A stretch of 53,493 bases of DNA, from the NCBI GenBank assembly GCA_014381755.1, contig JACNLB010000120.1:1-53493 (forward strand), read 5' to 3'. Origin of the DNA: Fidelibacterota bacterium (GTDB lineage Bacteria; Fidelibacterota; Marinisomatia; Marinisomatales; TCS55). Both the position numbers and the translations under genes were made by a program. This document shows positions 47,777 through 52,462 of this stretch, piece after piece. Every line of letters begins with the position of its first letter. Within the stretch, counting starts at the first letter, position 1. Under the pieces are notes generated by a model. The model searched no databases and was not told the DNA's origin. It saw only the letters and a list, made by a program, of their open reading frames with translations.

Positions 47777-49765
47777 TCAAGTTAGATATTTATCAAACCA
47801 GTCTACAATGAATTTTAACCGTGCTTCCCTGCGGTCGGGGCGGCCATGGCGGGATAAGCCATGGGGTTCTTCAGGAAAACGAATATATTCCACATCTTGT
47901 TCTAAATATTTGAGAGCCGTAAACATTTGATCTCCTTGCTCAATATTACAACGAAGGTCAAACTCACTGTGAATAATAAGCAGGGGAGTGGTACATTTAT
48001 CTATATACGTCATGGGTGACCATTTTAAGTAAGCTTGCCTGTTTTCCCAGGGAGCTCCGCCAAATTCCCAAGACAAGTCCCAGGCAATATCAGAATTACC
48101 AAACATACTGGATAAATCCGACACACATCTCTGGGTCACGGCTGCTTTAAACCGGCTCGTGTGCGTTATAATCCAATTGGTCATATAACCGCCGTAACTT
48201 CCACCTGTAACACCCATTTTATTTTTATCTACGAAACCAAGAGATAGTGCATGATCCACAGCTGCCATTAAATCTTTCATGGCCGGTTCTGCCCATTTAC
48301 CTGCAATCGCCTTGGCAAATTTTTCGCCATATCCCTGGCTGCCTCGAGGATTGGTATACATGACAATATATCCTGCCTGGGCTAATACATACATTTCGTG
48401 ATAAAATGTTCGACCGTATTGACAGCGTGGTCCGCCGTGAATGTTCAATATAAATGGATATTTTTTCTTCGGATTGAAATTCGGAGGTTTTACCAGCCAA
48501 CCCATTAATTTTTGTTTACCGTTATAGAATTCTACTTCCTCAGCAACCGAATAAGTTCGACTATTGATATACCGCCCATTTAATCGTGTTATTTGTTTTG
48601 TTTCACTGGTATTCAATTTTAATGTGAATAATTCATCCGGTGACTCCAAGCTGGCTCCATTATAAACCATTACTGTTTCATGAGCATCCATTGACCATGT
48701 ACATGCTACGGTATTTTTTGGTGTATTGATTTTGTCCCGGCCGGTATTTACATCCGTTTTGACAATATGATGCCGTCCTTCATGGGCAATACCATAATAA
48801 ACCGATTTTCCATTTTTACTCCAAATGGGCGATGTAATGACAAATGAGGGTGTAATATCGCCTAAGGTCAACATCATGGCCATGCGGTTCAATTTTTTCC
48901 CGAACATTTCATGTCTTTTCCCGGTAATATTCACTGTATTCAAAATATAATTAACCTCACCCCATCCTTTATAAGGCTGATCGTGGCCAATGTAGGCTAT
49001 GGTTTTTCCATCCGGTGAAAAGGAAATGCCTCCGTCCTTTGGTCCTGACGGTGTTTTGACTACTTTTAATTTTCCACCATTTACCGGTACACGGTAAATA
49101 TCCTGTTCGTCTAGCCGCTGGCGCCAGTTCTTTTCCCGAAAGGATACGAAGCAAATTTCCTTCCCATCCGGGGACCAGCAGGGAAACATATCATCATAAT
49201 CTCCAAAAACTAATTGTTTAGCAGATCCCGTATTTCCATTTGCTACCCACACATGGGTGTTTTCACTGTCAAAAAATCCCTGTCCATCCAAACGATACCA
49301 TATTTCCTTAATCTGCCGATATACGGGTGTTTCAATTTTTCCGTCTTTGCTAACTATTACTTCTTTACCAAGAGGATGAAAAAGGAATAGGATTTTTTTA
49401 CCATTCGGGGACCATTTGATGTCGCTGATTGAACCCCGGGGTAATTTTGTTAGGGGCTTGGCTTCACCGCCATCTATGGGCAAAAGCCAGATTTGACTAG
49501 ATGTTTCTTTTTTACGAATAAAGGCAATCGATTTATCATCTGAGGACCAAGCGGGGGAATGGTCGTTTCGTTTTCCAAATGTCAATTGTTTTAAACCTCG
49601 CCCGTTTGTTCCTGTAAAATACAAATTCGAATAATACTTTTTATCTTTCTTATCCATGCGTTCCACAGTAAATACGACGTGCTGACCAGACAAACTAACC
49701 CTTGGCTCCAGAGGGATTCTAAACTTATACAAGTCATCTATACGTATAGGATGTTTTTTGGGCAT
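47777..49765 (-). CDS. S9 family prolyl oligopeptidase-type peptidase
   Basis: A serine peptidase of about 662 residues, cleaving short peptides such as acyl- or dipeptidyl units. I use the ATG at 49765 (MPKKHPIRIDDLYKFRIPLE), as the GTG at 49798 lies inside the upstream lipase gene. The first part is a TolB-like seven-bladed propeller with WSPDGKEICFVSF-type repeats; the C-terminal alpha/beta hydrolase has the Ser in GGSYGGYMTNW (near 522) and the His in EEPHGLSRHG (near 635). No signal peptide is seen, so it is probably cytosolic. Last gene of a three-gene unit with the lipase and heme-copper protein. Confidence 0.93.
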   Translation of the reverse strand: MPKKHPIRIDDLYKFRIPLEPRVSLSGQHVVFTVERMDKKDKKYYSNLYFTGTNGRGLKQLTFGKRNDHSPAWSSDDKSIAFIRKKETSSQIWLLPIDGGEAKPLTKLPRGSISDIKWSPNGKKILFLFHPLGKEVIVSKDGKIETPVYRQIKEIWYRLDGQGFFDSENTHVWVANGNTGSAKQLVFGDYDDMFPCWSPDGKEICFVSFREKNWRQRLDEQDIYRVPVNGGKLKVVKTPSGPKDGGISFSPDGKTIAYIGHDQPYKGWGEVNYILNTVNITGKRHEMFGKKLNRMAMMLTLGDITPSFVITSPIWSKNGKSVYYGIAHEGRHHIVKTDVNTGRDKINTPKNTVACTWSMDAHETVMVYNGASLESPDELFTLKLNTSETKQITRLNGRYINSRTYSVAEEVEFYNGKQKLMGWLVKPPNFNPKKKYPFILNIHGGPRCQYGRTFYHEMYVLAQAGYIVMYTNPRGSQGYGEKFAKAIAGKWAEPAMKDLMAAVDHALSLGFVDKNKMGVTGGSYGGYMTNWIITHTSRFKAAVTQRCVSDLSSMFGNSDIAWDLSWEFGGAPWENRQAYLKWSPMTYIDKCTTPLLIIHSEFDLRCNIEQGDQMFTALKYLEQDVEYIRFPEEPHGLSRHGRPDRREARLKFIVDWFDKYLT

Positions 49766-49773
49766 TTTTTTGC

Positions 49774-51006
49774 TTACTCTTTCGGTGGTAACGACCACAG
49801 TAAATTACAATGATCCTCTAATAATTTTAGCATTTCCTGGACATCTTCTTCATCATTCAAACCGTGGCCCAGGGGCGCTTTATGATCCATATTTATTGTT
49901 TTAATATGATACCATTGACCGGGAATTAATAATTCCTCCGAGCGATATTCTGCAATGGGATCGGCTCCGTTCAAGCCGGTTGTGGGACCAAATTGAGAAA
50001 TTGTATTCACAATTCCATCATTTTCAAACCATGTGGAATCCGTTGCGGAGCCGTCAGCCCAATAGGCTTTATTCTTACCCATCACTCGTGCATTGGCCCG
50101 CAAAATTAAACTCATGGTTTCATCGGGTGTATGGAAACCACTGGCAGTATCCAGACGGGTATTGGCGGTAGAAAAGGAAAAATAATAAGTGCTGGAATTA
50201 GCCGGCGCAATCGTGTTTAATTCACGCGCACCTTCGATACTCACATCCCAAGCACACATATTTTTTGTCCCCCAGGCTTTATGTTCGCGCATGCGCCTGA
50301 AATATGCTGCCCAGGTTTCTTCTTCTTGTTTTTCAAAGCCCCATTGCTGGAGATCAAAATCATAAAAATCGTTGCCCACAACTGCCGCTAAACCAATAAC
50401 GTCCTGCAAAAACGGAATGCCCTTGGTAATTATGTCAGAAAGAGTTGTACCATTATGGGGAGTAGATATTGTGGCAATTGAACGAATCCATCCTTCATGA
50501 ACATTGGCCATTAACATGTTTTTTTCAAGAATGAATTCATCCTCATTTTCATAAATAATATTTTCAAGTAAATACTGCAGCATCCGAACAGTTTGCCCGC
50601 CCATACTATGTCCAACGAAATGAACAGGATGATTTTGATCCCATTGGGGATAGAGTCCATCAAAATACTTTTCCGGTGGTTGTTGTTCAAGCCCATATAT
50701 TTCAGAATGGCTTTTTCCGTAATCAACTTGGCCGCCTTTTATTTGGTAAAATAATTCAACAGCGCGATCCCAGTTGGAGGAAACTGGTCCCACAGACGTT
50801 GTATATACCTCAAAACCTTGTTGGCGAAGATAGGCTTCATAATCATTTTTACCACCCCAGTATTTGTAACCGGACATTTCATCGTTGCCCCAGCCCATAA
50901 AGCCATGGACCAATATAATGGGGTATTTATTCTCCGCAGCAAGATTAGTAAGAAGAACAAAACAAAGGAAGGTTGTGGTGATTATAAAATGGTTATGGAA
51001 TTTCAT
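49774..51006 (-). CDS. Secreted lipase, family I.5-like
   Basis: A 410-residue esterase/lipase with a signal peptide (about 1-23). The mature part resembles Geobacillus/Staphylococcus family I.5 lipases along its length: ILVHGFMGWGNDEMSGYKYW, TSVGPVSSNWDRAVE, GHSMGGQTVRML with S134, STPHNGTTLSDI and FENDGIVNT with D330, and MDHKAP with H375. The complete triad is present. Some zinc-ligand positions of the known family appear changed (for example Q in DLQQWGF), judged from memory. The ATG directly follows the stop of the heme-copper protein. Confidence 0.9.
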   Translation of the reverse strand: MKFHNHFIITTTFLCFVLLTNLAAENKYPIILVHGFMGWGNDEMSGYKYWGGKNDYEAYLRQQGFEVYTTSVGPVSSNWDRAVELFYQIKGGQVDYGKSHSEIYGLEQQPPEKYFDGLYPQWDQNHPVHFVGHSMGGQTVRMLQYLLENIIYENEDEFILEKNMLMANVHEGWIRSIATISTPHNGTTLSDIITKGIPFLQDVIGLAAVVGNDFYDFDLQQWGFEKQEEETWAAYFRRMREHKAWGTKNMCAWDVSIEGARELNTIAPANSSTYYFSFSTANTRLDTASGFHTPDETMSLILRANARVMGKNKAYWADGSATDSTWFENDGIVNTISQFGPTTGLNGADPIAEYRSEELLIPGQWYHIKTINMDHKAPLGHGLNDEEDVQEMLKLLEDHCNLLWSLPPKE

Positions 51007-52377
51007 TTAATCAGTATAATAATAGCCGAAGAGAATCATCATTTCGTCCTCACTCAATAAACCAAAGGTCAGGGTATCATTTGTCCAGTTATCATACGTG
51101 GCAATCATCCGCAAGCCTTCGCCCGGTTCCAATGTAAGAGGTGGATCCAATTCCAAAATAGGAGGGTGTTCCCAATCATAGGAAATATAAACCAATTCCC
51201 CATCTCTTTCTCCTCCGGCAATCTCCACTGCAAATTCCAGGTTGTGCTCGTGAGCGTGGGAAAAGAGCTGGAGAATATGCATGCGTTGGTTAAATGTAAA
51301 TGTTCGTTCAAGAGTTGTAATTTCATTTGGAGGTAATTCAAATTCATTATGATTTAATGTCAAAATTTCAGCTATGTGCTCTACTTCTGTAGGATCCACT
51401 AAATGAATATTAGTATAGATTTCGCCGATCAATACATCATCTGAACGATTCACATAATGAGAATTAAGATCTAAACCTTTATCAGCATCAATCTTTATAG
51501 CCATTCCGGGCGGATATGTTCTATTTATATATGGCCATTGAGTTCCAGCAAAAAAATCATGGTAATACATAACGGCTAAATTGTCAATATTGAAATTCCC
51601 ATTTGCGTCTCTCAAATCTCGATAAACACCCTCTTCTGGAATTAATAGATCGGGCATGCTGTTGCGAAAAGTATACAAAATAAAATGATGGCTTCCCGGT
51701 CTCATGGTTATTTCTACTTGATTCACATAAATATATCCGCTTGTATCCAGATCCGTATAATTTAATAATTCTCGTTCGTAATTGGGTTGCACTTCAAAAG
51801 GGCCAAGGTGGATTTGTATGCCATTTTCAGGTATGGCTAATGGACTAAAATTAATTTCCTCAAAACGTGTGGTATCCGTTAACAGAGTTGTATCAGAAAC
51901 ACTCCCAGTTTCAGGTGCCCCCTCAATAATCCACTGGCGAATGAATTCCAGTTGCCCGTTCGTTAAATGAGGTAATCCCAAGGGCATTAATGAACCATAA
52001 TTATGGTGATCGCTAAAAAAGTGTTCTTTGTCGGGAGCATTTATTTTCTCCCAGAAATAGCTTTTATATAGACTGCTTAATCCATCGGTCCCTATGCGTT
52101 CCAACCCATCATCTAATGCAGCTTGATTGTCAACCGGTTGATTGGTCAATTGATTATATGCTACATCTTGAGTAAGAACAAGATTAGATTGATTGGCAAA
52201 TGATGTCCCCGCTGAATGGCAATCAACACAGTTTTGGGAAAAAATATCTTCCTGAATAATTTTCCATGAATCACGGCTATTTATAATGACTTGATCGTCA
52301 TTTGAATTTCGCGCGACTTCTGTGCAGCCCCATAAGATGAATATGAGCAGAAGAAAGAGATAATTTTTATTCTTCAT
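51007..52377 (-). CDS. Lipoprotein with c-type heme and PHM-like copper monooxygenase domains
   Basis: A 456-residue exported lipoprotein (lipobox Cys C18 in ILWGC). The first domain has one c-type heme site C50-x2-C53-H54 (CVDCH), with M131 (GSLMPLG) as a possible axial ligand. The second (about 180-456) resembles copper type II ascorbate-dependent monooxygenases of the peptidylglycine hydroxylase kind. Ligands are seen as H230/H231 (PGSHHFILYTF), H307 (LNSHYV), H374/H376 (FSHAHEHN) and M446 (SEDEMMILF). A redox-linked hydroxylase or an electron carrier is inferred. It is the first gene of a unit with lipase and S9 peptidase. Confidence 0.85.
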   Translation of the reverse strand: MKNKNYLFLLLIFILWGCTEVARNSNDDQVIINSRDSWKIIQEDIFSQNCVDCHSAGTSFANQSNLVLTQDVAYNQLTNQPVDNQAALDDGLERIGTDGLSSLYKSYFWEKINAPDKEHFFSDHHNYGSLMPLGLPHLTNGQLEFIRQWIIEGAPETGSVSDTTLLTDTTRFEEINFSPLAIPENGIQIHLGPFEVQPNYERELLNYTDLDTSGYIYVNQVEITMRPGSHHFILYTFRNSMPDLLIPEEGVYRDLRDANGNFNIDNLAVMYYHDFFAGTQWPYINRTYPPGMAIKIDADKGLDLNSHYVNRSDDVLIGEIYTNIHLVDPTEVEHIAEILTLNHNEFELPPNEITTLERTFTFNQRMHILQLFSHAHEHNLEFAVEIAGGERDGELVYISYDWEHPPILELDPPLTLEPGEGLRMIATYDNWTNDTLTFGLLSEDEMMILFGYYYTD

Positions 52378-52429
52378 CAGTTATAAAGAATAGAAATTTT
52401 ACTGCACAATTCCAACTATCATTGCATAA

Positions 52430-52462
52430 AAAACAAAAGCCCTCTTTGAGGGCTTTTGTTTC
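52430..52462 (-). terminator. Intrinsic terminator after glnA
   Basis: AAACAAAAGCCCTC-TTT-GAGGGCTTTTGTTT forms a long, perfect stem with a three-base loop just past the glnA stop codon (minus strand), with T-runs on that strand. It isolates glnA from the heme-copper protein gene. Confidence 0.93.

Follow-up and report, generated by a model that had tools for sequence, protein, structure and literature searches.

The fusion gene and its neighbours

The window, that is, the whole stretch of 53,493 nucleotides analysed here, belongs to a Marinimicrobia (SAR406) genome and carries on its minus strand an open reading frame (51007..52377, ATG start, TAA stop) encoding a predicted lipoprotein of 456 amino acids, in which a putative c-type heme domain is joined to a copper core of the type found in peptidylglycine alpha-hydroxylating monooxygenase (PHM). 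The features of the window given with coordinates below lie on the same strand. The protein begins with a signal peptide (52324..52377) that ends in the lipobox-like sequence FILWGC with C18. The heme domain follows at residues 35-165 (51883..52275), with the heme attachment motif CVDCH at residues 50-54 (52216..52230) and a candidate distal heme ligand at M131-P132 (51982..51987), within a SLMPLG stretch. The two-domain copper monooxygenase core, recognised with Foldseek, occupies residues 183-455 (51013..51831). Its predicted CuH ligands are H230-H231 (51685..51690; PHM H107, H108) and H307 (51457..51459; PHM H172), and its predicted CuM ligands are H374-A-H376 (51250..51258; PHM H242, H244) and M446 (51040..51042; PHM M314).

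Homologues were gathered from public genomes, from the window's own phylum and from Bacteroidota, and 60 non-redundant sequences remaining after a 93% identity filter were used for the invariance counts. C50, C53, H54, M131, H230, H231, H307, H374, H376 and M446 were each found in 60/60. A preliminary description of this DNA had placed a lipobox, CVDCH and the copper residues HH, H, HAH and M in one polypeptide, and this holds.

A secreted lipase is encoded directly downstream (49774..51006; Lip_C 211 bits, YSIRK lipase model 265 bits), and its ATG starts at the very next base after the TAA of the fusion gene, leaving zero-base spacing. After it comes an S9 prolyl oligopeptidase-family peptidase (47777..49798; Pfam Peptidase_S9 191 bits), so both neighbours named in the preliminary description are real. 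Upstream of the fusion gene lies glnA, named from sequence as glutamine synthetase. Between the two we observed a hairpin with a T-run, AAAAGCCCTC-AAA-GAGGGCTTTTGTTTTTT (52422..52458), which is probably the terminator of glnA; a scan for consensus promoters and terminators did not flag it.

Within the window's own family the lipase adjoins the fusion gene in all 27 carrier genomes. The lipase itself is present in 35/40 genomes of this family, eight of which have no intact fusion gene. In four of these eight (G107, G109, G081 and G085), whose sequences were read, glnA is followed directly by the lipase and the S9 peptidase. In G107 the stretch from glnA to the lipase holds no more of the fusion gene than its last 27 codons (L118:3869-3949), apparently what a deletion left behind, and the S9 gene of this genome has an internal deletion too. 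Whether the S9 peptidase accompanies the lipase varies with the genus. Because it is found next to the lipase in genomes that lack the copper gene, and is absent in G110, a link between the S9 peptidase and the copper gene was rejected.

The surroundings of the gene are different in other lineages. At L003, L004, L006, L023, L025 and L026 it is preceded by an AMP-binding ligase of the acyl-CoA synthetase type, an enoyl-CoA hydratase lies downstream in a Rhodothermaceae contig (L010), and short-chain dehydrogenases are divergent from the fusion gene at L007 and L013. Most of the remaining lineages show unrelated neighbours. A lipid theme is visible among these genes and can be taken as a lead. 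The survey of neighbouring genes proposed in the preliminary description thus gave a constant lipase among carriers of the window's own family and different neighbours elsewhere, so that the neighbours do not constrain the substrate.

Copper core and heme domain

The whole protein was modelled with AlphaFold2 using 16 sequences, with a mean pLDDT of 78 and values mostly above 80 in the copper part. When the model was compared with the PDB by Foldseek, the first 31 matches were all PHM or dopamine beta-hydroxylase (DBH), with E values from 1.3e-12 to 2.8e-9 and a target TM of about 0.6-0.67 to PHM; the best match had about 15% identity. The matches after these were double-jelly-roll capsids and similar folds, with E values above 1e-6.

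The PHM reference sequence was identical to PDB entry 1OPM. A profile alignment of the fusion family with 1OPM paired four of the six ligands (H307/H172, H374/H242, H376/H244 and M446/M314), at an E value of 2e-4 and a probability of only 44%, and started at residue 286. H230-H231 lie outside this alignment and were equated with H107-H108 through the fold and through a second, distant family of fusions (family B, described below), whose HH pair aligns with H107-H108. The window protein scored 17.7 bits with Pfam Cu2_monoox_C, below the cut-off of 23, and several orthologues just reached the cut-off; fold and ligands, and not Pfam, are therefore the basis of the PHM-type assignment. Sequence searches of the PDB with the protein and with its first alignment returned nothing useful. 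By its predicted fold and six ligands, the copper core is assigned to the PHM/DBH-type (copper type II) monooxygenase superfamily. The match to all six PHM copper ligands, which had been read from the letters, holds in the Foldseek fold, in the conservation and, for four of them, in the 1OPM alignment; the fold from the structure prediction that had been called for and the alignment both fit PHM-like copper sites.

The heme domain was modelled separately (residues 24-168, 57 sequences) with a pLDDT of 91.9. This model had no Foldseek match. The sequence profile of the domain matched cytochromes c6 weakly and also the diheme cytochrome FoxE (5MAB) weakly, at E 7e-4, where both heme modules of FoxE were matched, including the MPLG...I-WI-AGAP stretch; FoxE, however, is a diheme iron oxidoreductase without a copper core. 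Pfam gave weak matches to CTI, Cytochrom_C and PSCyt1 only. From its motif and conservation, the N-terminal domain is considered a putative c-type heme domain.

The spacing of the heme motif was variable among the 60 homologues: 46 had CX2CH, six had CX3CH (L084, L089, L013, L090, L063, L027) and eight had CX4CH (L095-L102). Despite this change both Cys, the His and M131 were never lost, which speaks for selective pressure to keep the heme site. M131 and P132 were kept in 75/76 sequences, the single exception being the heme-less form described below. The occurrence of three spacings in one protein family offers a natural series for the study of cytochrome c maturation specificity. Two genes of the host genome match Cytochrom_C_asm, with products of 663 and 230 aa, and are CcmF- and CcmC-like, so covalent heme attachment is possible. 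H119 and H124 had been considered as extra metal ligands, being invariant in the first 16 sequences, but they were variable in the larger set and were dropped.

A lipobox was present in 43/60 homologues and a C-terminal tail of more than 60 aa in 15 others, while both occurred together in none. Four tail-bearing members of the first set (n=16) were scanned, and T9SS/FlgD-type sorting-domain models matched. The lipobox and the tail thus appear to replace one another, and both would point to a location at the envelope or surface. At two loci (L063:5603-7420 and L073:5764-7515) the signal peptide is separated from the heme domain by extra cysteine-rich and dockerin-like inserts.

Distribution and relatives of the fusion

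Near-full-length matches to the fusion protein were found in 60/245 Neomarinimicrobiota genomes and in 19/296 Bacteroidota genomes, the latter including the two carriers known earlier (G249 and G246). A cultivated species, Portibacter marinus (L011), is among the carriers. The closest relative in public genomes, from Candidatus Marinimicrobia bacterium 408169, has 91% identity; the rest of the first homologue set had whole-protein identities of 47-65%, and identity of the heme domain went down to 34% in the wider set. The join of heme domain and PHM core is real and is conserved across a bacterial superphylum. Outside the ten metal-binding residues the divergence of the family reaches about 35-50% identity, and as judged from these alignments the conservation of the ten residues is far beyond chance. 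A search of plasmids found no relative of the fusion protein and only one distant relative of family B.

Family B (also A2) consists of very distant heme-PHM fusions from Marinimicrobia (L058:1533-2975, L059:1452-2951, L060:1875-3323, L061:1392-2627 and L062:1251-3608) and Bacteroidota (L106-L117). As in the fusion family, a CxxCH domain comes first and a PHM core second, the latter carrying HH, H, HxH and M of its own. Over the PHM part the two families were matched by hhalign with a probability of 98% at 24% identity. Unlike the window protein, family B scores above the cut-off of Pfam Cu2_monoox_C, and its heme loop reads MPPWP where the fusion family has MPLG. Some members carry dockerin-like or other tails. 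The presence of a second distant heme-PHM family in the same phyla indicates that the architecture is recurrent.

One relative of 331 aa (L056:3162-4154, in genome G045) has no heme domain and keeps all six copper ligands. In this protein a His-rich linker (HNHDDHDH) connects the lipobox to the copper core. It nests within a heme-bearing clade in the tree, and so it looks like a secondary loss of the heme domain. Missing cytochrome c maturation was considered as the cause and was rejected, since G045 keeps the maturation genes. An alpha/beta hydrolase gene overlaps the end of the heme-less gene. In the sibling genome G042 the fusion gene (L057) is split into several broken frames and is apparently decaying. 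We found no description of bacterial heme-PHM fusions in the open PMC literature, which mostly does not include subscription papers.

Proposed electron route and substrate

PHM and DBH are textbook animal copper enzymes that use ascorbate as electron donor, and the electron route to CuM has long been debated. We take R240, N316 and Y318 of PHM to be the anchors of the peptide carboxylate. The equivalent positions in the fusion family are F372 (F/T/W/M/L/V, never R), I448 (I/F/L) and F450 (F in 59/60). Because these positions are mostly apolar, a peptide substrate, as the preliminary description had considered, is disfavoured, and the protein, though PHM-like, probably does not amidate peptides. 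Q170 of PHM belongs to a water network to the peptide (PMC6123673); its position is taken by an invariant Asn305 in the 60 homologues, whereas family B keeps Gln there. Residues 100-455 contain no Cys in most members, including the window protein, so these have none of the PHM disulfides. With rat PHM (1OPM/3MIC) the fusion protein has in common the two-domain copper core, all six of its copper ligands and the SxDEM sequence around the CuM methionine, but it differs in its low identity (about 15%), in the lack of core disulfides and carboxylate anchors, and in being a lipoprotein with an additional heme domain. It would work like a PHM-type enzyme, not like PHM proper.

DBH (4ZEL) has the same copper core and also an extra N-terminal domain; this domain, a DOMON beta-sandwich, lacks heme ligands (PMC4846438), whereas that of the fusion protein is modelled as an alpha-helical c-type heme domain. 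In animal PHM one electron per copper comes from ascorbate (PMC6123673), and DBH uses two ascorbates as reductant (PMC4846438).

The reading we favour is that of a binuclear copper monooxygenase of the PHM type, anchored at the surface, whose electron-entry heme is fused in cis and which probably acts on a small apolar substrate; on the sequence and model evidence we consider it fairly probable. A periplasmic or surface electron carrier would reduce the heme, and the heme would pass single electrons to CuH (H230/H231/H307). O2 would bind at CuM (H374/H376/M446), the C-H bond of the substrate would be hydroxylated, and the second electron would come from CuH, as in PHM. The fused heme would thus stand in for the ascorbate of animal PHM and DBH. 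The idea that a built-in heme feeds the coppers had been raised in the preliminary description, and its plausibility survives the tests of fold, alignment and conservation. Given the apolar residues at the positions that would anchor a peptide, the substrate would probably be small and apolar and not a peptide with C-terminal glycine. A comparable handover is known from the cytochrome domain of cellobiose dehydrogenase, where a heme module hands single electrons to a copper oxygenase, the LPMO; there, however, the heme is heme b, the partners are separate proteins, and the copper enzyme is mononuclear with an unrelated fold.

A wider statement can be offered more tentatively, at somewhat under even confidence. 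In this statement the family is a self-sufficient, ascorbate-independent bacterial branch of the PHM/DBH superfamily, where a c-type cytochrome fused to the copper core feeds electrons from outside the cell or from the periplasm straight into the two-copper site, and apolar environmental or lipid compounds are hydroxylated at the surface of marine Marinimicrobia and Bacteroidota. If it is true, ascorbate would be shown to be non-essential to PHM/DBH chemistry, a heme visible by spectroscopy within the one polypeptide would allow direct timing of electron entry, and an uncharacterised oxidative activity would recur in marine uncultured bacteria.

The main caution for a heme donor comes from the heme-less L056, which keeps the copper ligands and suggests that the heme is not absolutely required. 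The protein could be an active PHM-type monooxygenase whose heme docks, senses or is structural, and whose coppers are reduced by small molecules. L056, nested as it is among heme-bearing relatives, would fit this, as would PHM and DBH, which function without heme (PMC6123673, PMC4846438), and the DOMON domain of DBH. However, the heme and Met ligands are kept in 60/60 others, and distant family B also has a heme domain ahead of its PHM core, and we regard a heme that is not the donor as unlikely.

The electron-entry reading can also be narrowed to an operon for lipid degradation: the lipase would release or expose fatty acids, alkanes or sterols, and the copper enzyme would hydroxylate them. 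A lipid-derived substrate is a guess from the neighbouring genes alone. The zero-base spacing and the constant lipase adjacency among the 27 carriers speak for it, as do the AMP-binding ligase before the gene in another family and the enoyl-CoA hydratase after it in the Rhodothermaceae contig. The degradative unit suggested in the preliminary description finds weak support here: the lipase adjacency stands, but the lipase occurs without the copper gene in eight genomes, with glnA running directly into lipase and S9 in the four that were read, the S9 peptidase is unlinked, and the neighbours are unrelated in most other lineages. The adjacency to the lipase may be merely an inherited gene order after glnA. 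We think that so specific a role is improbable.

Conservation alone is no proof of oxygenase activity, and the PHM fold might have been kept for copper storage, for sensing, or for electron transfer or delivery to the respiratory chain. The PHM substrate-pocket residues are not conserved, no substrate gene neighbourhood is seen, and the His-rich linker of L056 would suit such a role. Yet the O2-binding CuM set of His-X-His and Met is strictly kept together with its DEM context, and storage would not require two separate sites at the PHM positions; a non-oxygenase role appears quite improbable to us. A true peptide-amidating or peptidylglycine-hydroxylating enzyme working as partner of the neighbouring S9 peptidase would accord with the PHM fold, the copper ligands and the nearby peptidase, but is very improbable, as F372, I448 and F450 replace the carboxylate anchors, the peptidase is unlinked outside a few genera and occurs without the copper gene, and the fusion protein has no PAL domain.
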